Source: Candidatus Dormiibacterota bacterium (GTDB taxonomy: Bacteria > Chloroflexota > Dormibacteria > Aeolococcales > Aeolococcaceae). Taken from it: a stretch of DNA of 42,804 bases. Below are positions 31,647 through 42,804 of the stretch, in pieces (position 1 is the first letter of the stretch; each line of letters opens with the position of its first letter). The position numbers and the translations under genes are program-made. The stretch lies in NCBI GenBank assembly GCA_036495095.1, contig DASXNK010000099.1, forward strand, positions 1 to 42,804. The letters are read 5' to 3'. Below the pieces are notes generated by a model. It saw only the letters and a list, made by a program, of their open reading frames with translations, did no database searches and was not told the origin of the DNA.

Positions 31647-32585
31647 ATGAGCCTGCATCGGTTGACCTCGATCACCGTCGGTGTCCCCAACGTGGAGGGG
31701 ACGGCGGCGTACTACGCGGACTTCGGTCTCCGGCGAACCGGGACGTCCCCGGGAGGAGCGGTGCGGTTCGCGACCCGCGACGGCGGCGAGCAGCTGGAGA
31801 TCGTCCCCGCACCCCGTCGCGGGCTGGTGCGCATCGGCGTCGGCGCCCATGACCGGGACGACATCGCCCGGCTGCGGGCCGGCCTCGACCGGCTGGACGT
31901 CATCGGTGAGGGCACCGACGACGCGCTGTGGGCGGTGGACCCGGGCTCCGGCCTGGAGGTCACCGTCGCCGTCGCCCCGGAGATCACCGAGCAGCCGGCG
32001 GCGCCGGAGCCGACCAACGGGCCGGGCCGGGCCGACCGCCCCAACGGACGCGCGCAGGCGGTCGAGCGGGAGGGCCCGGTGCAGCCCCGCAAGCTCGGAC
32101 ACGTGGTCATCGGTTCGGCCGACCGCCCCACCACCCAGCGGTTCTTCGTCGAGGGACTGGGGTTCAAGATCAGTGACGAGGTCCCCGGGCTGGCCAGCTT
32201 CATGCGCTGCTCGACCGACCATCACAACCTGCTGGTGCAGCAGGCACCGCTGAACTTCCTGCACCACACCGCCTGGGAGGTCGACGACGTCGACGAGGTC
32301 GGCCGGGGTGCCACGAAGATGCTCGAGGGCCATCCCGAGCGCCACGTCTGGGGACTGGGCCGCCACCACATCGGCTCGAACTTCTTCTGGTACCTGCGTG
32401 ATCCGGCCGGAAACTTCAGCGAGTACTACAGCGACCTGGACTGCATCGTGTCCGACGCGCTGTGGAAGCCGTCGGTCGTCGAGGGCGCGCGCGGGCTGTA
32501 CAACTGGGGGCCGCCGCCCCCGCCCTCCTTCATCCAGCCCGAGGATCTCGCCGAGCTGATGACCGCCTCGCACGGTCGCGGGTGA
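31647..32585 (+). CDS. Extradiol ring-cleavage dioxygenase (VOC superfamily, type I)
   Basis: A 312-residue two-domain VOC protein. The N-terminal module (1-110) lacks ligands; the catalytic module holds the 2-His-1-Glu iron site at H152 (KLGHVVIGS), H207 (FLHHTAWEV) and E259 (GNFSEYYSD), with H241 in the GRHHIGSN segment a likely active-site base. This is the pattern of 2,3-dihydroxybiphenyl or catechol 2,3-dioxygenases, which open a catechol ring next to the hydroxyls. A Pro-rich linker of about 35 residues between the modules is unusually long. It is first in a three-gene operon (five-base gap, then ATGA overlap) and divergent from the hydroxylase that would make its catechol. Confidence 0.9.
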   Translation: MSLHRLTSITVGVPNVEGTAAYYADFGLRRTGTSPGGAVRFATRDGGEQLEIVPAPRRGLVRIGVGAHDRDDIARLRAGLDRLDVIGEGTDDALWAVDPGSGLEVTVAVAPEITEQPAAPEPTNGPGRADRPNGRAQAVEREGPVQPRKLGHVVIGSADRPTTQRFFVEGLGFKISDEVPGLASFMRCSTDHHNLLVQQAPLNFLHHTAWEVDDVDEVGRGATKMLEGHPERHVWGLGRHHIGSNFFWYLRDPAGNFSEYYSDLDCIVSDALWKPSVVEGARGLYNWGPPPPPSFIQPEDLAELMTASHGRG

Positions 32586-32589
32586 CGCC

Positions 32590-33429
32590 ATGCGTGTCGC
32601 CAGGGTATCTGGACGGTTGTCCCTCCTCGTGGAGGGCGGAGCGGTGGACGTCGAGACGGCCAGCCGTGGCCGGTTCCCCAGCGATCCCGACGATGTGATG
32701 GCGCGATGGGACGAGCTGAGCGACTGGGCCGCGAGGTACGGAGGCGGGGACGTGGCGCCCTACACGCCGGCCGACGTGGGCGCCCCGCTGTTGCGCCCGG
32801 CCCAGGTCTTCGGCATCGGCCTGAACTACCGGGACCACGCCGCCGAGTCCGGCGTCGACGTGCCGCTCGCACCGGCGGTGTTCACCAAGTTCCGGACGTG
32901 TCTGACCGGGCCATACGACGCCGTGCTGCTCCCCAGCGGCAGGGTGGACTGGGAGGTCGAGCTGGTCGTGGTCGTCGGCCGGCGGGCGGAGAACGTCGCC
33001 AGGGAGCACGCCTGGTCCCACGTGGCGGGTGTGACCGTCGGACAGGACCTGTCGGAGCGGACGGTGCAGCTGGCCGGCCCCGTGCCCCAGTTCTCGCTGG
33101 GCAAGTCCTTCCCCGGGTTCGGCCCGATCGGGCCGGCGATCGTGACCCCGGACGAGCTCGCCGATCCCGACGATCTGGAGCTCGCCTGTCGCCTCGATGG
33201 CGAGGTGCTCCAGACGGGTCGCACCCGTGACATGGTGTTCTCGGTGCCCGAGCTGGTGGCCCGGCTCTCCGCCGTCTGCCCGCTGCTGCCGGGCGACCTG
33301 ATCTTCACCGGCACGCCGCCCGGGGTCGGCATGGCCCGCACCCCGCCCCGGTTCCTGAGCGGCGGCACGACGCTGGTCAGCACCATCGAGGGCGTCGGCG
33401 AGCTGCGCAACCCTTTGGTGGCTGCATGA
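32590..33429 (+). CDS. Fumarylacetoacetate hydrolase-family protein
   Basis: A 279-residue FAH-fold enzyme. The metal ligands are E122 and E124 in DWEVELVVVVGR and D153 in GQDLSER. The FGIGLNYRDHAAESG opening, FSLGKSFPGFGPIGP loop and LIFTGTPPGVG turn are family hallmarks. Members hydrolyse or decarboxylate beta-keto acids and the products of meta ring cleavage (for example 2-hydroxymuconate-type compounds). Five bases after the dioxygenase and overlapping the LLM gene by four, it would act on the ring-opened product. The N-terminal cap of about 65 residues is also typical. Confidence 0.92.
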   Translation: MRVARVSGRLSLLVEGGAVDVETASRGRFPSDPDDVMARWDELSDWAARYGGGDVAPYTPADVGAPLLRPAQVFGIGLNYRDHAAESGVDVPLAPAVFTKFRTCLTGPYDAVLLPSGRVDWEVELVVVVGRRAENVAREHAWSHVAGVTVGQDLSERTVQLAGPVPQFSLGKSFPGFGPIGPAIVTPDELADPDDLELACRLDGEVLQTGRTRDMVFSVPELVARLSAVCPLLPGDLIFTGTPPGVGMARTPPRFLSGGTTLVSTIEGVGELRNPLVAA

Positions 33430-34403
33430 GGACCACGCGCCGCGCAGTGAGCTGTCTCATCCCGCCCCGGGAGTCCTTCGCCGCCGCGGCGGGCCACGCC
33501 GAGCTCGCCGAGGAGCTGGGCTACGACTCGGTCAACTGCACCCACATCGCGGCGCGCGACTCCTTCACCGTGCTGGCCGCACTCGCGATGCGCACCGAAC
33601 GGATCTCCCTCGGCACCGCGGTGGCCCCGATCTACCATCGTTCGCCGGCCTCCATGGCCCAGACGGCGGCAACCCTCGACGACATGTCCGCCGGCCGGTT
33701 CCGCCTCGGGCTTGGCGTCGGGCACCGGGTCACCATGGGTGGCTGGCACGGCCAGGAGATCGGACCACCCGTCGCCGAGATGCGCGAGTACCTGGCCATC
33801 GTCCGTGCCATCCTCGCCGGCGACCCGCCGCCGGAGGGCCGGCGCTGGCGCTCCACCTTTGCCTTCAACGGGCTCACCCCCCGCGCCGACCTTCCCATCT
33901 ATCTGGCCGGGCTGTCCCCGGCGATGCTTCGACTCGCCGGTGAGCTGGCCGACGGTGTGATCCTGTGGGCCTGTCCGCACGAGTACGTGCGCACCGTGGT
34001 CGTCCCCGAGGTCAGCCGGGGCCGGCGCGAGGCGGGCAGGGATCTCGACGGCTTCACGATCATGGCCGCGGTGCCGGCGGCGGTCGGCGGCGACCGCGGC
34101 CGCGTGCTCGACGGGGTCCGCAGCGAGCTGCACCGCTACTTCAGCCTGCCCTTCTACCGCGCCATGTTCGACGCCGCGGGGTTCGGTGCGAACCTCGCCG
34201 CCTATGACGCCGCCGCGCCCGATGTGCAGGCGCAGAAGCAGGCGATCAGCGAGGAGTTCGTCGAAGCGCTCTGCGCGCTCGGCGACGAGCGCGACGTCCG
34301 AGCCGGCATCGAGCGCTACCGGGCGGCCGGCGCCACCGATCCGCTCGTGTCCGCCGTCTCCGGCAGCGACTTCACCGCCACGCTGCGCGCCGCCGCGAAC
34401 TGA
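33426..34403 (+). CDS. LLM-class flavin (F420 or FMN) dependent oxidoreductase
   Basis: A 325-residue luciferase-like TIM barrel: HAELAEELGYDSVNCTHIAARDSFTVLAALAMRTERISLGTAVAPIYHRSPASMAQTAATLDDMSAGRFRLGLGVGH is the classical N-terminal half, and LAGLSPAMLRLAGELADGVILWACPHEYV the conserved strand-loop. Members use F420 or reduced FMN for hydride transfer or oxygenation. The gene is last in the dioxygenase-FAH operon and overlaps the FAH stop by four bases (ATGA). Its step is unclear; it might reduce an unsaturated intermediate. About 140 bases without a gene follow its stop. Confidence 0.92.
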   Translation: MRTTRRAVSCLIPPRESFAAAAGHAELAEELGYDSVNCTHIAARDSFTVLAALAMRTERISLGTAVAPIYHRSPASMAQTAATLDDMSAGRFRLGLGVGHRVTMGGWHGQEIGPPVAEMREYLAIVRAILAGDPPPEGRRWRSTFAFNGLTPRADLPIYLAGLSPAMLRLAGELADGVILWACPHEYVRTVVVPEVSRGRREAGRDLDGFTIMAAVPAAVGGDRGRVLDGVRSELHRYFSLPFYRAMFDAAGFGANLAAYDAAAPDVQAQKQAISEEFVEALCALGDERDVRAGIERYRAAGATDPLVSAVSGSDFTATLRAAAN

Positions 34404-35764: not shown

Positions 35765-38509
35765 GTGTTGCTCGGTCGGCGCAGCGAGCGCGAGGTCCTC
35801 GGCCGGCTGGTTCTGGCCGCGCGTGGCGGCGAGGGCGGGGCGATCGTGGTGCATGGAGAGCCCGGCATCGGGAAGACGGCCCTCATCGAGGCCGCAGTCT
35901 CATCCGCGCAGGGGTTCCAGGTCGTCCGCACCGTCGGCAACGAGGCGGAGATGGAGCTGCCGTTCGCGGCACTGCACCAGCTCTGCCGGCCGGGGCTCGA
36001 CAACCTGGAACGGCTCGCGGGGCCGCAGCGCGACGCCCTGCGTGTCGCCTTCGGGCTCAGCGCCGGGGATCCGCCCGACCGCCTGCTGGTGGGCCTGGCG
36101 GTGCTCAGTCTCCTCGCCGAGCTGGCCGCCCGGCAGCCCGTCCTCTGTGTCGTCGACGACGCCCAGTGGCTCGACACATCGTCCGCGCAGGCTGTTGCGT
36201 TCGTGGCGCGTCGGGTGGCGAGCGACGCGGCAGCGTTCGTGTTCGGGACGCGCCGGCTCACCGACGAGCTCACCGGCCTGCCAGAGCTGGTGGTCGCGGG
36301 ACTGGGCGAGCGTGACGCGCGGGCGTTGCTGGATTCGGTGCTGCCCGACCGCGTCGATGAACGTGTCCTCGAGCGGATCCTCGCCGAGACGCACGGCAAT
36401 CCGCTCGCGCTGCTCGAGCTGCCACGGGGCCTGACCCCGTCGCAGCTCGCGGGGGGGTTCGGCCTCCCGGGATCACTGCCGCTGGCGGGTCGGATCGAGG
36501 AGAGCTTCCGGCGGCGACTTGCCGGGCTCCCGTCGCCGTCCCGGCGCCTGTTGCTGCTCGCAGCCGCCGAACCGACCGGTGACCCGGTGCTGATCTGGCG
36601 CGCGGCCGAGCTGTTGGGCATCCCCGAGTCGGCGGCCGACGCGGTCGAGGCCGAGGGCCTGATGGACCTCCGCGCCGCCGTGGTCTTCCGCCACCCGCTG
36701 GTCCGCTCCGCCGTGTATGGCGCGGCCTCCCCGGGGGCTCGGCGGGAGGCGCACCACGCGCTCGCGGAGGCCACCGATCCCGCGGTCGACCCCGACCGGC
36801 GTGCGTGGCACCGCGCGCAGGCGACGTCGCGCCCCGAGGAGGACGTGGCCGTGGAGCTGGAACTCTCGGCGGGTCGAGCCCAGGCGCGGGGCGGGTTCGC
36901 GGCGGCGGCTGCGTTCATGGAACGGTCGGCCACGTTGACGGCCGATCCCGCCCGGAGGGCGCGCCGGGCGCTCGTGGCTGCCGAGGCAAAGCGTCAGGCC
37001 GGTGCCCTCGATGCCGCCCTGGGGCTGGCGGCCACGGCGGAGCGAGGACCGCTGGACGACTTCCAGCGTGCCCAGCTGGACGTGCTCCGAGCCCAGATCT
37101 CGTTCGCGACGCAGCGGGGGAGCGACGCCCCGCCTCTGCTGCTGAAGGCTGCCAACCGGCTGGAAGGCCTCGACGTGCGGCGGTCGCGCGAGACCTACCT
37201 CGATGCACTGACAGCGGCGATGTTCGCAGGCCGGCTGGCGAAGGGCCCCGACGCACGCGCCGTCGCCAGGGCGGCGCGCGCAGCGCCGCGGCCTGCCGAC
37301 CCTCCCCGCGCGTCGGACCTGCTGCTCGACGGCCTCGCGCTCCTCATCACCGATGGATACGCAGCAGGGACACCGGTCATGCGGCAGGCGCTGGACGCGT
37401 TTCGCGGCGGCTCCGCCGCCGTGGACGAGCGGTTGCGCTGGTCGTGGTTGGCCGGGCGAGCCGCCGGATTCATCTGGGACCATGACAACTGGGACGTGCT
37501 CACCGCCGACCAGATCCAGGTCGCGCGCGATGCAGGCGCGCTCTCGGTCCTGCCGCTGGCCCTGAGCACCCGCGCCGGCGCGCACATCTTCGCGGGCGAG
37601 CTCTCGGCGGCCGCGTCGCTGGTCGAACAGAGCAGGGCCGTCGCCGATGCCGTCGACAACCGCACCGTCCCCTACGCAGCGGTGGTCGTCGCCGCCTTCC
37701 GCGGGCGCGAGGACGACGCCCGTCCGCTCATCGACGCCGGCGTCGAGGATTTCGTCGCCAGAGGAGAGGGCATGGCGCTCAGCATGGCGCGCTGGGCCAC
37801 CGCCGCGCTGTGCAACGGGCTCGCCCTCTACGACGAGGCATTCGGTGCTGCTCGGCAGGCGCTCGAGGACCCCGATGAGGTCTGGTACTCGCCGTGGGCC
37901 ACGGTCGAGCTCATCGAGGCGGCGAGCCGCACCGGACATACCGTGGCCGCGGCGACCGCACTGAAACGCCTGGGCCAGGGCACGGACGCGAGCGGGACGG
38001 ACTGGGGCCGTGCGGTCGAGGCGCGATGCCGGGCCCTCGTCGGCGAGGGTGAGGTGGCCGAAACCCTGTACCGCGAGGCGATCGAGCGGCTCGCGCCCAC
38101 GGCGATGCGGCTCGACCTGGCACGCACCCATCTCGTCTATGGGGAGTGGCTGCGGCGCGAGCGCCGGCACGTCGATGCGCGCGAGCAGCTGCGCGCCGCC
38201 GACGAGCTCTTCACCGGGTTCGGGATGGAGGGGTTCGCCGAGCGTGCGCGCGTCGAACTGCGCGCCACCGGAGGGAGCGCTCGCAAGCGGACCCCGGAGA
38301 CCAGCGACGACCTCACGCCACAGGAGGCACAGATCTCACGGCTCGTCGCTCAGGGGGCGACCAACCAGGAGATCGCCGCCCAGCTGTTCATCAGCCCGAG
38401 CACCGTCGAATATCACCTCTACAAGGTGTTCCGCAAGCTCGGCGTCAAGTCCCGAACCCAACTTGCAACTCGCGTCCACGCATCGAGGGCCTTCACGGGA
38501 AGTCCATAG
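35765..38509 (+). CDS. Large AAA-ATPase LuxR-family regulator (LAL type), copy 2
   Basis: A 914-residue protein. The ATPase has Walker A GEPGIGKT (31-38) and Walker B VLCVVDDAQWLD (126-137), followed by a helical-repeat middle and a C-terminal LuxR helix-turn-helix (LTPQEAQISRLVAQGATNQEIAAQLFISPSTVEYHLYKVFRKLGVKSR). Long identical stretches with the copy at 17786 run through the ATPase and repeat regions (for example GNPLALLELPRGL, FRHPLVRSAVY), so the two are paralogues. GTG 35765 follows GGGGGAC. It precedes the NTF2/crotonase/Mo-hydroxylase series on the same strand with a 95-base gap and is its likely activator. Confidence 0.92.
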   Translation: MLLGRRSEREVLGRLVLAARGGEGGAIVVHGEPGIGKTALIEAAVSSAQGFQVVRTVGNEAEMELPFAALHQLCRPGLDNLERLAGPQRDALRVAFGLSAGDPPDRLLVGLAVLSLLAELAARQPVLCVVDDAQWLDTSSAQAVAFVARRVASDAAAFVFGTRRLTDELTGLPELVVAGLGERDARALLDSVLPDRVDERVLERILAETHGNPLALLELPRGLTPSQLAGGFGLPGSLPLAGRIEESFRRRLAGLPSPSRRLLLLAAAEPTGDPVLIWRAAELLGIPESAADAVEAEGLMDLRAAVVFRHPLVRSAVYGAASPGARREAHHALAEATDPAVDPDRRAWHRAQATSRPEEDVAVELELSAGRAQARGGFAAAAAFMERSATLTADPARRARRALVAAEAKRQAGALDAALGLAATAERGPLDDFQRAQLDVLRAQISFATQRGSDAPPLLLKAANRLEGLDVRRSRETYLDALTAAMFAGRLAKGPDARAVARAARAAPRPADPPRASDLLLDGLALLITDGYAAGTPVMRQALDAFRGGSAAVDERLRWSWLAGRAAGFIWDHDNWDVLTADQIQVARDAGALSVLPLALSTRAGAHIFAGELSAAASLVEQSRAVADAVDNRTVPYAAVVVAAFRGREDDARPLIDAGVEDFVARGEGMALSMARWATAALCNGLALYDEAFGAARQALEDPDEVWYSPWATVELIEAASRTGHTVAAATALKRLGQGTDASGTDWGRAVEARCRALVGEGEVAETLYREAIERLAPTAMRLDLARTHLVYGEWLRRERRHVDAREQLRAADELFTGFGMEGFAERARVELRATGGSARKRTPETSDDLTPQEAQISRLVAQGATNQEIAAQLFISPSTVEYHLYKVFRKLGVKSRTQLATRVHASRAFTGSP

Positions 38510-38604: not shown

Positions 38605-39051
38605 ATGGCAGTGGACAACGAGCAGATCATCCGGAAGGCCTACAAGTACGCGGAGGACTACGACGTCCCTGGCTGGGTCGCCTCCTTCGCGGAGGGTGGG
38701 ACGTTCACAGACGAATCCACGGGCATCGTCTACCGTGGCCCGGACGAGTTGGGGATCCTGGTCGAGGTCTACAAGACGGCCTTCTCGGACATGCATCGGG
38801 AGCTGTACCGCTTCTATACGACCGGTGACATCGTGGTCGTGCAGCTCGCCCTGCAGGGGACCCACGACGGTCCGCTGAAGCTGCCCCAGGGAACCATCTC
38901 GCCCACCGGCAGGCGGATGGACGCGCCCTGCGCCGACGTCTTCGAGGTGGTGGACGGCAGGATCAAGCGTTTCGACTGCTACCCGTCTGGGACGGTCATC
39001 CTCACGCAACTCGGCGTGCTCGGCGATCTCGCCGCCGCCCTGGTGCGCTGA
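38605..39051 (+). CDS. SnoaL/NTF2-like protein
   Basis: A 148-residue NTF2-fold protein: IIRKAYKYAEDYDVPGWVASFAEGGTFTDESTGIVYRGPDELGILVEVYKTAFSDMHRELYRFYTTGDIVVVQLALQGTHDGPL is typical of the SnoaL-like ester cyclase or nuclear-transport-factor fold, and TGRRMDAPCADVFEVVDGRIKRFDCY the closing strands. Members cyclise, isomerise or simply bind small cyclic molecules. GAGAGG lies just before ATG 38605. It is the first gene after the LuxR regulator and is followed after 15 bases by the crotonase, so it probably belongs to the same pathway. Catalytic residues cannot be named with confidence. Confidence 0.85.
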   Translation: MAVDNEQIIRKAYKYAEDYDVPGWVASFAEGGTFTDESTGIVYRGPDELGILVEVYKTAFSDMHRELYRFYTTGDIVVVQLALQGTHDGPLKLPQGTISPTGRRMDAPCADVFEVVDGRIKRFDCYPSGTVILTQLGVLGDLAAALVR

Positions 39052-39066
39052 GAAGGAGGGATATCC

Positions 39067-39834
39067 GTGGGCGACACCCCGGCGTACTTCGACAACTATG
39101 AGAACTTCGCGATCACGCGATCTTCGAGCGGTGTTCTCACGGTGCGATTCCACACCCAGGGCGGGGAGCACACATTCAACGGGACCACCCACCACGACTT
39201 TCCACGGCTCATCGAGGACATCGGCTACGACCGGGACAACAAGGTGCTCGTGCTGACCGGCACCGGAAGCACCTTCATCGACAGCATCGACGGCCCCAGC
39301 CTCGGCGACATCACCAAGCCGTGGAACGCAGACGTCATGTACGTCGAGGGCCGGCGCGGTCTCCAGCGGTTGGTCGACCTCGAGATCCCGATCGTCGCCG
39401 CCGTGAACGGCCCCGTCTCGGTCCACAGCGAGTACGCCCTCCTGGCCGACGTGGTCGTCGCCAGCGACACCGCCGTCTTCTCCGACGTCCCCCATCTCGC
39501 CTTCGGCATCGCCCCCGGAGACGGGCTCTTCGTCGTCTGGGAGGAGGTCCTCGGGCTGAACCGGGCCCGCCACCTCGAGATCACCAGCGGCTCGTTCACG
39601 GCCCAGGAGGCGCTCACCTGGGGGGCCGTCGCCGAGGTCGTACCTCAGTCGGAGGTGCTCTCCCGTGCCCACGCGCTGGCGGAACAGATGACCGCCCGAC
39701 CGCAGCTGACCAACCGATACATGGCGGTGGTCTTCCGCCAGCGGATCAGCCGCCGTCTGGCCGAGGGCACGGCGCTCGGGATGGCGCTCGAGTGCCTGAC
39801 CGCCGCGAACCTGGCCTACGCGGGCCAGGGCTGA
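39067..39834 (+). CDS. Crotonase, 6-oxocamphor hydrolase-like (beta-diketone cleavage)
   Basis: A 255-residue crotonase-fold protein. The characterised relative I recall best is 6-oxocamphor hydrolase from Rhodococcus, which breaks the C-C bond of a cyclic beta-diketone by a retro-Claisen reaction. Its catalytic residues, as I remember them, are H122, H145, D154 and E244; here H120 (PVSVHSEYA), H143 and D152 (FSDVPHLAFGIAPGDG) and E242 (MALECL) occur with the same spacing, offset by two. The equivalent of W40 is Asn or Phe. It lacks the usual CoA-ester oxyanion pattern of enoyl-CoA hydratases, so naming it hydratase would mislead. GAAGGAGG precedes GTG 39067; 19 bases separate it from the Mo-hydroxylase. 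Confidence 0.83.
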   Translation: MGDTPAYFDNYENFAITRSSSGVLTVRFHTQGGEHTFNGTTHHDFPRLIEDIGYDRDNKVLVLTGTGSTFIDSIDGPSLGDITKPWNADVMYVEGRRGLQRLVDLEIPIVAAVNGPVSVHSEYALLADVVVASDTAVFSDVPHLAFGIAPGDGLFVVWEEVLGLNRARHLEITSGSFTAQEALTWGAVAEVVPQSEVLSRAHALAEQMTARPQLTNRYMAVVFRQRISRRLAEGTALGMALECLTAANLAYAGQG

Positions 39835-39853
39835 CCGCGTACGGACGCCGTCG

Positions 39854-42451
39854 ATGAAGCTCAGGGTGAATGGCGCGGACATCGAGGTCGACGACCGCCA
39901 CGCGAAGACCCCGCTCCTCTGGGTGCTCAGGGACGTGCTGGGGATGCACGGAACCAAGTTCGGCTGCGGAGCCGGCTTCTGTGCGGCGTGCACGGTGCTG
40001 ATCGACGGGCGGAACACGAAGTCGTGTCAGACCGCGACCGAGCGGGCCGTCGGAAGGGCCGTCACGACGGTCGAGGGGGCGTCGGGCCGCGTCGTCGACG
40101 CGATCCGAAGCGCGTGGCATCGCGGCAACGTCGTGCAGTGCGGTTACTGCCAGCCTGGCCAGACCCTCGCGGCGGTGGCGCTTCTCAGCTCCGAGGCTTC
40201 GCCGGACGACGCGACGATCGACGAGTGGATGAGCGGAAACCTCTGCCGGTGCGGGACCTATCCGCGAATCCGGGCCGCCATCCACGAGGCGGCGGGCATG
40301 CTCGCCGCGGGGACCGACCCCGGCCCTCTCACCGCGCCAGCGGAGCCGGAGGTCCGGCGACTGACCGCCGAGGAGATGGCCGACCCCGTCCATCCGTACA
40401 TCCGGATCCGCGACGACGGGATCGTGGTCGCGTTCTCCAGCCAGATCGAGATGGGACAGGGCGCCCACACCGGGCTGGCGACGATCGTGGCGGAGGAGCT
40501 CGACGCGGACTTCGACTCGGTGCGCGTGGTCAACGCGGCCAACGGGGCGGGCCCCAAGGGCGACGTGTATGCGACCCCGTCAGGGGGCGGCGTCTTTCAA
40601 CTCACCGGGGCGTCCACCACCACCATGGGAAACTGGGGCCGGTACCGGCTGGCGGCGGCCCAGGCCCGGGCCCGTCTCGTCGAGGCGGCGGCGGACGCCT
40701 GGGACGTGCCCCCCTCCGAGGTGGAGGTCGAGCGCGGCGTCCTGCGTCACCCCACCGGGAAGGAGGCGACCTTCGCCGGGCTGGCCGCGCCGGCCGAGCA
40801 GCTCCCCGTTCCCGACGGCGTGCAGCCGAAGGACCGGCCGCAGTACCGGCTGATCGGACGCGAGGGGCGGCTGCGCGTCGACACCGCCGCCAAGATCCTC
40901 GGTGACACCCGCTTCACCATCGACGTGACCCTCCCCGGGATCCTGACCGCGGTCGTGCTGCACCCGCCGCGCTTCGGGGCAGCGATCGCATCGGTCGATA
41001 ACAGGACGGCGCTGGCCGAGCCCGGAGTCGTCGCGGTGGTTGCGATCGAGGAGGGAGTAGCCGTTGTCGGCGAGACCTACGCCGATGCGTGGCGTGGCGT
41101 CCACGCGCTGGTCGTCGACTGGGATGACACCAACGCCGAGCGGCGCAGCTCGGAGGAGCTGCTGGCCGAGCACGTCCGGTTGGTGGAGTCCGGCGAGAAG
41201 GCGGTGGTGTCCCGCGACGACGGCGACGTCGACCAAGCCCTGGCCGGCGCCGCCACCGTCGTGGATGCGCTGTACCAGCTGCCCTATCTCGCCCACGCGC
41301 CCATGGAACCGAACAACGCGGTGTGCCGGATGCGGGAGGACGGCGTCCTCGAGGTCTGGGCGGGCACCGAAGGGCCCATGTACACGCAGATGTCTGCCGC
41401 GCAGGCGGCGGGCATCGAGCAGGCCTGGGTCGAGGTCCACGTCACGTACGCAGGAGGCTCGTTCGGGCTCCACAGCACAGCCGAGCACGATCCGACCGCG
41501 GAGGCCGTGCAGGTCGCGCGCGCCCTGGGCTGGAAGCACCCGATCAAGCTGCAGTCGTCCCGGGAGGAGGAGTTCAAGGCCGGCTGGTATCGCCCGATGG
41601 TGGTCCATCGCGTGCGGGCCGGCGCGGACTCGACAGGCCACCTGACAGCCTTCCACCAGCAGATCGCCGCTGCTCCGGTGTCGGTGAACATGCCGGGCGT
41701 CCGCGACGTGATGTTCACCAACGGCGTGGACTTCTTCACGATCACCGGCGCCTCCGAGCCGCCATACGCGTATCCGAACTTCAGACTCGAGTCGACCAAC
41801 GTCGAGACGGGCGTCCGGACGATGGTGTGGCGGTCGGTGGGGAACTCGCACACCGAGTTCGCCCGCGAGTCGGCGATCGACGAGCTCGCGATCGCCACCG
41901 GTCGCGACCCCGTCGACCTGCGCCGAGAGCTGCTCGCGGGCAGCCCGCGAACTCTGCGGGCGCTCGAGCTCGCGGCCGAGCTCTCCGGTTGGGGTTCCCC
42001 GATGCCGGAGGGCAGGGCGCGCGGCATCGTCTCCTCCGGCTTCCTCGGCCACAGCGCCCACGTCGTGGAGATCTCGCTCGACGACCGGCAGCGCATCCAC
42101 ATCGATCGGGTCGTCGCCGTCATCGACTGCGGGATCGTCGTCAACCCCGATCTGGTTCGCGCCCAGGTGGAGGGCGGCCTCGTCTTCGGGTTGAGCGCGG
42201 CCATGTGGGGCGAGGTCGTGCTCGGCCCGGGAGGCGAGATCGTCACCCAGAGCTTCGACCGCTATCCGGTCATGCGCATGCGCTCGGTGCCGCGGATCGA
42301 GGTCCACCTCATCGAATCGGCGGAGCCGCCGACCGGGGTCGGGGAGATCAGCGTCCCCTCGTCGGCGCCGGCGCTGGCCAACGCGGTCGCCGCGCTCACC
42401 GGGACCCGGGTCCGCCGGCTGCCCCTCTCGAACACAGTCAAGTTCCACTGA
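39854..42451 (+). CDS. Fused 2Fe-2S/molybdopterin hydroxylase (isoquinoline 1-oxidoreductase type)
   Basis: An 865-residue single chain. Residues 1-155 carry both 2Fe-2S clusters of the small subunit: C38, C43, C46, C58, then C96, C99, C131, C133. Residues 165-865 match the molybdopterin subunit of the IorB type: IEMGQGAHTGLATIVAEEL, HAPMEPNNAVCRM, MVWRSVGNSHTEFARESAIDELA, and a C-terminal GVGEISVPSSAPALANAVAALTGTR containing the catalytic Glu. These parts are normally two genes (IorA and IorB); there is no FAD domain, so electrons leave to another acceptor. It would hydroxylate a ring carbon with water oxygen. It follows the crotonase by 19 bases and precedes a Tat protein by 12. Confidence 0.9.
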   Translation: MKLRVNGADIEVDDRHAKTPLLWVLRDVLGMHGTKFGCGAGFCAACTVLIDGRNTKSCQTATERAVGRAVTTVEGASGRVVDAIRSAWHRGNVVQCGYCQPGQTLAAVALLSSEASPDDATIDEWMSGNLCRCGTYPRIRAAIHEAAGMLAAGTDPGPLTAPAEPEVRRLTAEEMADPVHPYIRIRDDGIVVAFSSQIEMGQGAHTGLATIVAEELDADFDSVRVVNAANGAGPKGDVYATPSGGGVFQLTGASTTTMGNWGRYRLAAAQARARLVEAAADAWDVPPSEVEVERGVLRHPTGKEATFAGLAAPAEQLPVPDGVQPKDRPQYRLIGREGRLRVDTAAKILGDTRFTIDVTLPGILTAVVLHPPRFGAAIASVDNRTALAEPGVVAVVAIEEGVAVVGETYADAWRGVHALVVDWDDTNAERRSSEELLAEHVRLVESGEKAVVSRDDGDVDQALAGAATVVDALYQLPYLAHAPMEPNNAVCRMREDGVLEVWAGTEGPMYTQMSAAQAAGIEQAWVEVHVTYAGGSFGLHSTAEHDPTAEAVQVARALGWKHPIKLQSSREEEFKAGWYRPMVVHRVRAGADSTGHLTAFHQQIAAAPVSVNMPGVRDVMFTNGVDFFTITGASEPPYAYPNFRLESTNVETGVRTMVWRSVGNSHTEFARESAIDELAIATGRDPVDLRRELLAGSPRTLRALELAAELSGWGSPMPEGRARGIVSSGFLGHSAHVVEISLDDRQRIHIDRVVAVIDCGIVVNPDLVRAQVEGGLVFGLSAAMWGEVVLGPGGEIVTQSFDRYPVMRMRSVPRIEVHLIESAEPPTGVGEISVPSSAPALANAVAALTGTRVRRLPLSNTVKFH

Positions 42452-42463
42452 AGGGAGGAACCC

Positions 42464-42804
42464 ATCATCGCCGACGTCAACCGCCGAGACGCGATCAGGA
42501 TGGGAGCCGCTGGCGTGGCCCTCGCGGGATTGGGGGTGCGCGGGGCCGGGCAGGCGTACGCGGCGACCACCAGCGGCGTCCACGTCCACGGAACCCTGCG
42601 CGTGCTCACCGACACCGCCGGCGGACCCTTCGCCACCACGACGGCGGAGCCGGGTCCCGAGATCCCCGTCGACATCCCGTTCATCATCAGCATCGACGCC
42701 TGGGGGCCGGACTCCGATCTCAGCGGTCAGGGATGGGGCGAGCTGGCCGATCTCTCCGACAGGACGCAGCCGGCGCGCGTCGACCCCATCCAGCGCATCT
42801 ACAG
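42464..42804 (+). CDS. Tat-exported protein, apparent AUC start, partial (runs off right edge)
   Basis: Twelve bases after the Mo-hydroxylase, GGGAGGAA is followed by two ATC codons and then an open frame reading ADVNRRDAIRMGAAGVALAGLGVRGAGQAYA, a clear twin-arginine signal, and a mature part with VHVHGTLRVLTDTAGGPFATTTAEPGPEIPVDIPFIISIDAWGP. No ATG, GTG or TTG lies between the in-frame stop (42449-42451) and the twin Arg. The first ATG (42500) would remove it, so a rare AUC start at 42464 or 42467 is the simplest reading. I do not recognise the mature domain. It may be a periplasmic partner or substrate-binding protein of the same pathway. Confidence 0.6.
   Translation, partial: MIADVNRRDAIRMGAAGVALAGLGVRGAGQAYAATTSGVHVHGTLRVLTDTAGGPFATTTAEPGPEIPVDIPFIISIDAWGPDSDLSGQGWGELADLSDRTQPARVDPIQRIY

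Follow-up and report, generated by a model that had tools for sequence, protein, structure and literature searches.

A candidate catabolic locus combining a beta-diketone hydrolase-type crotonase with a one-chain molybdenum hydroxylase

The locus described here raises the question whether a molybdenum (Mo) hydroxylase and a crotonase encoded side by side form one catabolic operon that couples oxidation by the Mo enzyme to hydrolytic retro-Claisen cleavage of the same substrate, or whether the two genes merely lie next to each other. The analysed window is a complete contig (C99, 42,804 bases, 72% G+C) from a draft genome of 4.4 Mb in 216 contigs. An earlier note on this DNA had proposed a new pathway for its right end, and this proposal was followed up by homology searches, active site comparison, structure models and neighborhood analysis.

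Layout of the locus

The right end of the contig (38605-42804) carries four closely packed ORFs on the plus strand, as had been described before. They encode a SnoaL/NTF2-like protein of 148 aa (38605..39051), a crotonase of 255 aa (39067..39834), a Mo hydroxylase of 865 aa (39854..42451) and a partial protein with a twin-arginine-like signal (~42464..42804), which is cut by the contig end. Only 15 bp separate the SnoaL and the crotonase gene and 19 bp the crotonase and the Mo gene. The crotonase gene starts with GTG, preceded by AAGGAGG, and no terminator-like sites were seen between the genes of the locus. Judged by this spacing, the four frames would constitute a single transcription unit. 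In the part of the operon within the contig no gene for an electron acceptor was visible.

A large LuxR-type (LAL) regulator with the Pfam domains AAA_16 and GerE is encoded on the same strand (35765..38509, +), 95 bp upstream of the SnoaL gene. The earlier note had it act as the activator of the locus, which claims more than this position conveys; an activator role is possible. Another tight same-strand row of genes (31647-34403), coding for an extradiol-dioxygenase-like VOC protein, a FAH-family hydrolase and an F420-type luciferase-like oxidoreductase, lies 4 kb upstream and represents a separate ring-cleavage-like cluster, the first gene of which is nearly absent from relatives.

The fourth frame ends with the contig at 42804 after 113 codons. 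It had been taken for a Tat-exported protein, and a twin-arginine-like N-terminus (NRRDAIRMGAAGVALAG...AYA) is indeed present, but only behind an ATC codon and in a truncated frame. The sole starts including the twin arginine are ATC at 42464 and 42467, five and eight bases after GGGAGG, whereas ATG at 42500 would drop the motif and no ATG, GTG or TTG includes it. The ribosome-binding site suggests a start at ATC, and ATC at 42464 is a candidate for either a non-canonical start or a base error. Among plasmids, the own genome and the class no homologues of this frame beyond chance level were detected; matches at E ~1e-3 proved to be chance on inspection. The single-sequence model (pLDDT 51) yielded no confident fold.

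The crotonase and its partner proteins

The crotonase passed the general Pfam model ECH_1 (E 5e-27), as all crotonases do, and could on these grounds be an ordinary CoA-dependent enoyl-CoA hydratase (ECH) or isomerase whose residues match those of diketone hydrolases by chance. This reading is highly improbable, and an ordinary ECH was set aside given the gap in scores and the active site. In a phmmer search against all PDB chains, Anabaena beta-diketone hydrolase (ABDH; 2J5G, 7e-70) and 6-oxocamphor hydrolase (OCH; 1O8U, 1e-54) came far ahead of the first ordinary ECH (1e-16), which corresponds to a lead of about 120 to 170 bits over ordinary crotonases. For OCH, we take H45, H122, H145, D154 and E244 to be the catalytic set. 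H120, H143, D152 and E242 of the crotonase correspond to OCH H122, H145, D154 and E244 in an alignment beyond doubt, and the previously noted H/H/D/E set with an offset of two was thereby confirmed. With an offset of one, H42, D140, H143, D152 and E242 align to H43, D141, H144, D153 and E243, the catalytic residues of ABDH (PMC3584854); H42 and D140 are thus likewise kept, and had been absent from the earlier residue list. All six residues (H42, H120, D140, H143, D152, E242) are invariant in a ten-member crotonase alignment and kept in 21 of 24 relatives of a wider set, whereas none of the four ordinary ECHs compared from the own genome has the set.

A structure model of the crotonase was built from four sequences (mean pLDDT 63.6, low confidence at 150-166). 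Foldseek searches with this model ranked ABDH (44-45% identity) and OCH (41-42%) first. Because the VIA-align Z scores for ABDH and OCH tie with those of ordinary crotonases, the model, which is of moderate quality, appears to add the fold and not the function. Taking the sequence evidence together, the enzyme is predicted with near certainty to cut C-C bonds in 1,3-diketones in the manner of the CoA-independent beta-diketone hydrolases. It has the fold and the full catalytic set in common with ABDH (Anabaena alr4455, PDB 2J5G/2J5S) and OCH (Rhodococcus, 1O8U/1SZO) and differs from both by adjoining genes for a Mo hydroxylase and a SnoaL-like protein.

In the Mo protein the Pfam domains Fer2, Fer2_2, MoCoBD_1 and MoCoBD_2 were found in one ORF without an FAD domain, so that the single-chain Mo hydroxylase of the earlier note stands. 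Two [2Fe-2S] clusters (residues 1-150) are followed by a linker of ~25 residues and the Mo-cofactor domain (~180-865). Sequence and alignment show the cysteines of the clusters as well as the GVGE motif, which includes the catalytic Glu. The nearest full-length relatives, with 43-44% identity along the whole chain, are encoded on alphaproteobacterial plasmids of Azospirillum, Rhizobium and Sinorhizobium, where an FeS gene ends with a stop codon before the Mo gene, whose product carries an N-terminal twin-arginine signal (SRRGFLKGAGG, SRRNFLLGALA). On contig C99 stop codon and Tat signal are gone and the linker takes their place. IorAB-type pairs consist of a separate FeS subunit and a Tat-exported Mo subunit, whereas one chain without Tat signal is found here; the protein is therefore best described, at the sequence level, as an IorAB-related fusion and not as a typical IorAB. 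Since the Tat signal is lost, the enzyme is predicted to stay cytosolic, and with no export signal it should share the cytosol with the crotonase. AtcABC and MhyADH comprise three subunits with FAD, and at our locus there is neither an FAD domain nor an FAD subunit; the Mo protein may nevertheless work like these enzymes.

At least seven related genomes likewise encode FeS-Mo fusions without a stop codon, and the one-chain architecture was therefore rejected as a novelty. In one of these genomes (L036:7802-12921) the fused FeS-Mo hydroxylase has an internal twin-arginine-like motif, TRRAVIKTG, where the two parts join, and the next gene codes for a multihaem cytochrome.

The SnoaL-like protein was assigned by Pfam (SnoaL_2, E 3e-13; SnoaL, 1.5e-10) and gave weak PDB matches to polyketide and ester cyclases. 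Its nearest relatives are encoded on a Kitasatospora plasmid (69%) and a Streptomyces plasmid (56%), where they adjoin SDR or P450 genes, and no relatives at E<=1e-15 were found among 109 other genomes of the class. Judging from its fold family, the protein may act as a ring isomerase, cyclase, hydratase or epoxide hydrolase. A SnoaL gene from another subfamily immediately precedes an OCH-type crotonase gene in Streptomyces anthocyanicus.

Distribution of the crotonase and its neighbors

The closest crotonases (65-67%) are encoded on Streptomyces plasmids with LysR, SDR or transposase genes as neighbors. Neither these nor the next closest (same phylum, 51-53%) have a Mo gene nearby. A contig scan of the own genome detected only two distant homologues of the crotonase. 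Within the class the crotonase was not found beyond the own genome, and within the phylum two other genomes of 400 carry it. The relatives of the Mo protein within the class all come without this crotonase, and the full four-gene set was not found beyond this genome in the plasmids and genomes searched.

A xanthine-oxidase-type Mo subunit is encoded within 8 kb at five of 21 annotated plasmid loci with crotonases of the family, namely in Pseudonocardia, Paraburkholderia graminis, Caballeronia and two Methylobacterium. On the Pseudonocardia plasmid pBCI1-2 the genes run in the order cyclase, crotonase, Mo, FAD, FeS, and those for crotonase and Mo subunit are only a few bases apart. On the Paraburkholderia and Caballeronia plasmids a row of FeS, FAD, Mo and MFS genes adjoins the crotonase gene, and in Methylobacterium the Mo genes lie ~7 kb away on the opposite strand. 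In a proximity control with 18 plasmid records (11.7 Mb, 16 MoCoBD_1 genes) four crotonase loci with a MoCoBD_1 gene within 8 kb were observed versus 0.41 expected (P(>=4) = 3e-4); with the homologous Methylobacterium blocks counted as one, three remained (P(>=3) = 0.004). The plasmid loci had been picked by rank and diversity, and catabolic genes cluster anyway. In this sample OCH/ABDH-type crotonases lie near Mo hydroxylases more often than chance. In the crotonase tree the Mo-linked members are spread over three distinct clades, one of which holds the contig C99 member. The Mo enzymes at these other loci have three subunits, contain FAD and are not of the IorAB type. For the shared neighborhood which the earlier note expected of homologous loci the outcome is accordingly divided: a second locus with the complete set did not turn up and the closest crotonases are otherwise flanked, whereas crotonases of the family adjoin other Mo hydroxylases.

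Several further arrangements were encountered around crotonases of the family. On the Novosphingobium plasmid pLA3 (L054:6033-8759) a gene annotated as "molybdopterin-dependent oxidoreductase" precedes an OCH-like crotonase gene by 12 bp; it was rejected as support for the pairing, as its product is of the DMSO-reductase type and the crotonase is without H120 and E242. At six loci (L015, L016, L053, L060, L062, L064) the crotonase genes are located amid genes for LysR, glutathione S-transferase (GST), peroxiredoxin-like and SDR proteins, often with an alkene reductase. This conserved LysR/GST/SDR block may represent a catabolic or detoxification cluster that has not been described. In Pseudonocardia and Paraburkholderia megapolitana (L058, L067) the gene immediately preceding that of the crotonase codes for a "cyclase family" metal hydrolase (PF04199). 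The OCH/ABDH-type crotonase of Deinococcus aetherius (L017:7905-8759) has a signal-peptide-like N-terminus, MRPLVLTLTAALTLSLAGAQ, which suggests an exported diketone hydrolase.

Proposed coupling of oxidation and cleavage, and rival readings

For the reading of the locus as a catabolic operon with Mo-dependent oxidation and hydrolytic retro-Claisen cleavage of one substrate we estimate a probability of about 50%. In such a route the Mo enzyme would make or activate a 1,3-dicarbonyl or a vinylogous equivalent, either through hydration and dehydrogenation of an enone or through hydroxylation at a position adjacent to a carbonyl. In the crotonase, water activated by H143/D152 would attack one carbonyl, while H120 and other residues would steer the enolate, and opening of the C-C bond would give a keto acid. 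An intermediate may be isomerised, cyclised or hydrated by the SnoaL-like protein. The order of steps, the substrate and the roles of the SnoaL-like and the Tat protein are put forward here as conjecture. That the Mo enzyme hydroxylates a ring directly to give a diketone, as originally suggested, is the less likely chemistry for the Mo-hydroxylase family; on an alicyclic ring it would be an unusual reaction, and the described route to a 1,3-dione in this family is the enone hydration and dehydrogenation of AtcABC. The cyclic terpenoid, steroid or heterocycle named as substrate was a guess, as nothing in the sequence selects any of them. The coupling of an OCH-like diketone hydrolase with a fused Mo hydroxylase, on the other hand, is plausible, as related crotonases adjoin Mo hydroxylases above chance, and as a hypothesis the "new pathway" is reasonable and moderately supported.

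The coupled operon is favored because the crotonase has the full ABDH/OCH active site, because the genes are tightly spaced on one strand without a terminator-like site, because the Mo hydroxylase is identified, fused and devoid of its Tat signal, because the crotonase-Mo pairing recurs elsewhere and because precedents exist in AtcABC (PMC6678751) and in a gene pair of pAO1 (PMC6122326). Against it stand the closest and next-closest crotonases without a nearby Mo gene, the three-subunit, FAD-containing nature of the other Mo neighbors, the Mo relatives of the class without crotonase, and the occurrence of the set in one genome only, on a contig ending inside the set. IorAB-type enzymes, moreover, are known to act on aldehydes and N-heteroaromatics, for which no diketone is needed, and the doubts about the hydratase activity of the related MhyADH (PMC4052635) also count against the coupled route.

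A serious rival, possible though not probable in our estimate, reverses the order: the crotonase would cleave the diketone first, and the Mo enzyme would oxidise downstream an aldehyde derived from cleavage of a beta-keto aldehyde or from a side chain. The best PDB matches of the Mo subunit are aldehyde oxidoreductases (8GY3, 1SIJ), and PaoC and other aldehyde oxidoreductases are among the NCBIfam matches; all of these curated models, however, scored far below their cut-offs, and superfamily names do not fix a substrate. The gene order from crotonase to Mo gene is compatible with downstream oxidation, and the co-localisation fits equally well. Independent acquisition of the two genes side by side, with the crotonase degrading or detoxifying plant-type linear beta-diketones and the Mo protein serving another purpose, we regard as unlikely. 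It would agree with the closest relatives of each gene occurring in different bacteria with different neighbors, with the lack of crotonase and SnoaL genes in the rest of the class and with the many family members that lack a nearby Mo gene and have SDR, LysR, OYE and GST genes as neighbors. The curcuminoid hydrolase CurH, which is described as a beta-diketone hydrolase, offers a parallel at the level of chemistry. The short gaps on one strand and the recurrence of the Mo neighbor in other crotonase clades speak against independent acquisition.

The coupled operon can be compared with known systems. In the anaerobic 2,3-seco pathway of androgen degradation in Steroidobacter and Sterolibacterium, AtcABC produces androstan-1,3-dione, which is then cleaved hydrolytically (PMC6678751, PMC5554518); the 1,3-dione is formed by enone hydration and dehydrogenation, and the hydrolase was reported to "remain unidentified" (PMC6678751). 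The likeness, drawn by description, consists in a Mo enzyme of the xanthine-oxidase family and a cyclic 1,3-dione ahead of ring opening, whereas AtcABC has three subunits with FAD and our protein is one FAD-free chain. On pAO1 the gene of a Mo ketone dehydrogenase (6-hydroxypseudooxynicotine) adjoins that of 2,6-dihydroxypseudooxynicotine hydrolase (PMC6122326). Here, too, a Mo hydroxylase gene lies beside a hydrolase cleaving the C-C bond of a diketo tautomer, but that hydrolase belongs to the alpha/beta-hydrolases, with a serine as catalytic residue, and its neighboring Mo enzyme is made up of three subunits. MhyADH of Alicycliphilus is a possible third system with the same logic (PMC3692508), although its hydratase activity was questioned by its own discoverers (PMC4052635). 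A literature search for crotonase, diketone and Mo hydroxylase together returned nothing relevant beyond a steroid review, and a description of the crotonase-Mo pairing as a degradation module was not found.

Each part of the locus belongs to a known family. What is new is their combination, and a related pairing occurs repeatedly on plasmids of other bacteria. Only tentatively can a Mo enzyme with a crotonase-fold beta-diketone hydrolase be considered a module for ring opening that recurs, has gone undescribed and works without oxygen; contig C99 would then carry a one-chain, FAD-free version. The structures of OCH-type hydrolases are well known and few natural pathways have been assigned to them; the repeated Mo-hydroxylase neighborhood provides a testable link between the two enzyme groups. 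If the module holds true, OCH-like crotonases would be candidates for the missing hydrolase of the 2,3-seco steroid route and for that of anaerobic cyclohexanol breakdown, and the step following AtcABC, in which steroid 1,3-diones are hydrolysed, would gain a candidate enzyme class.
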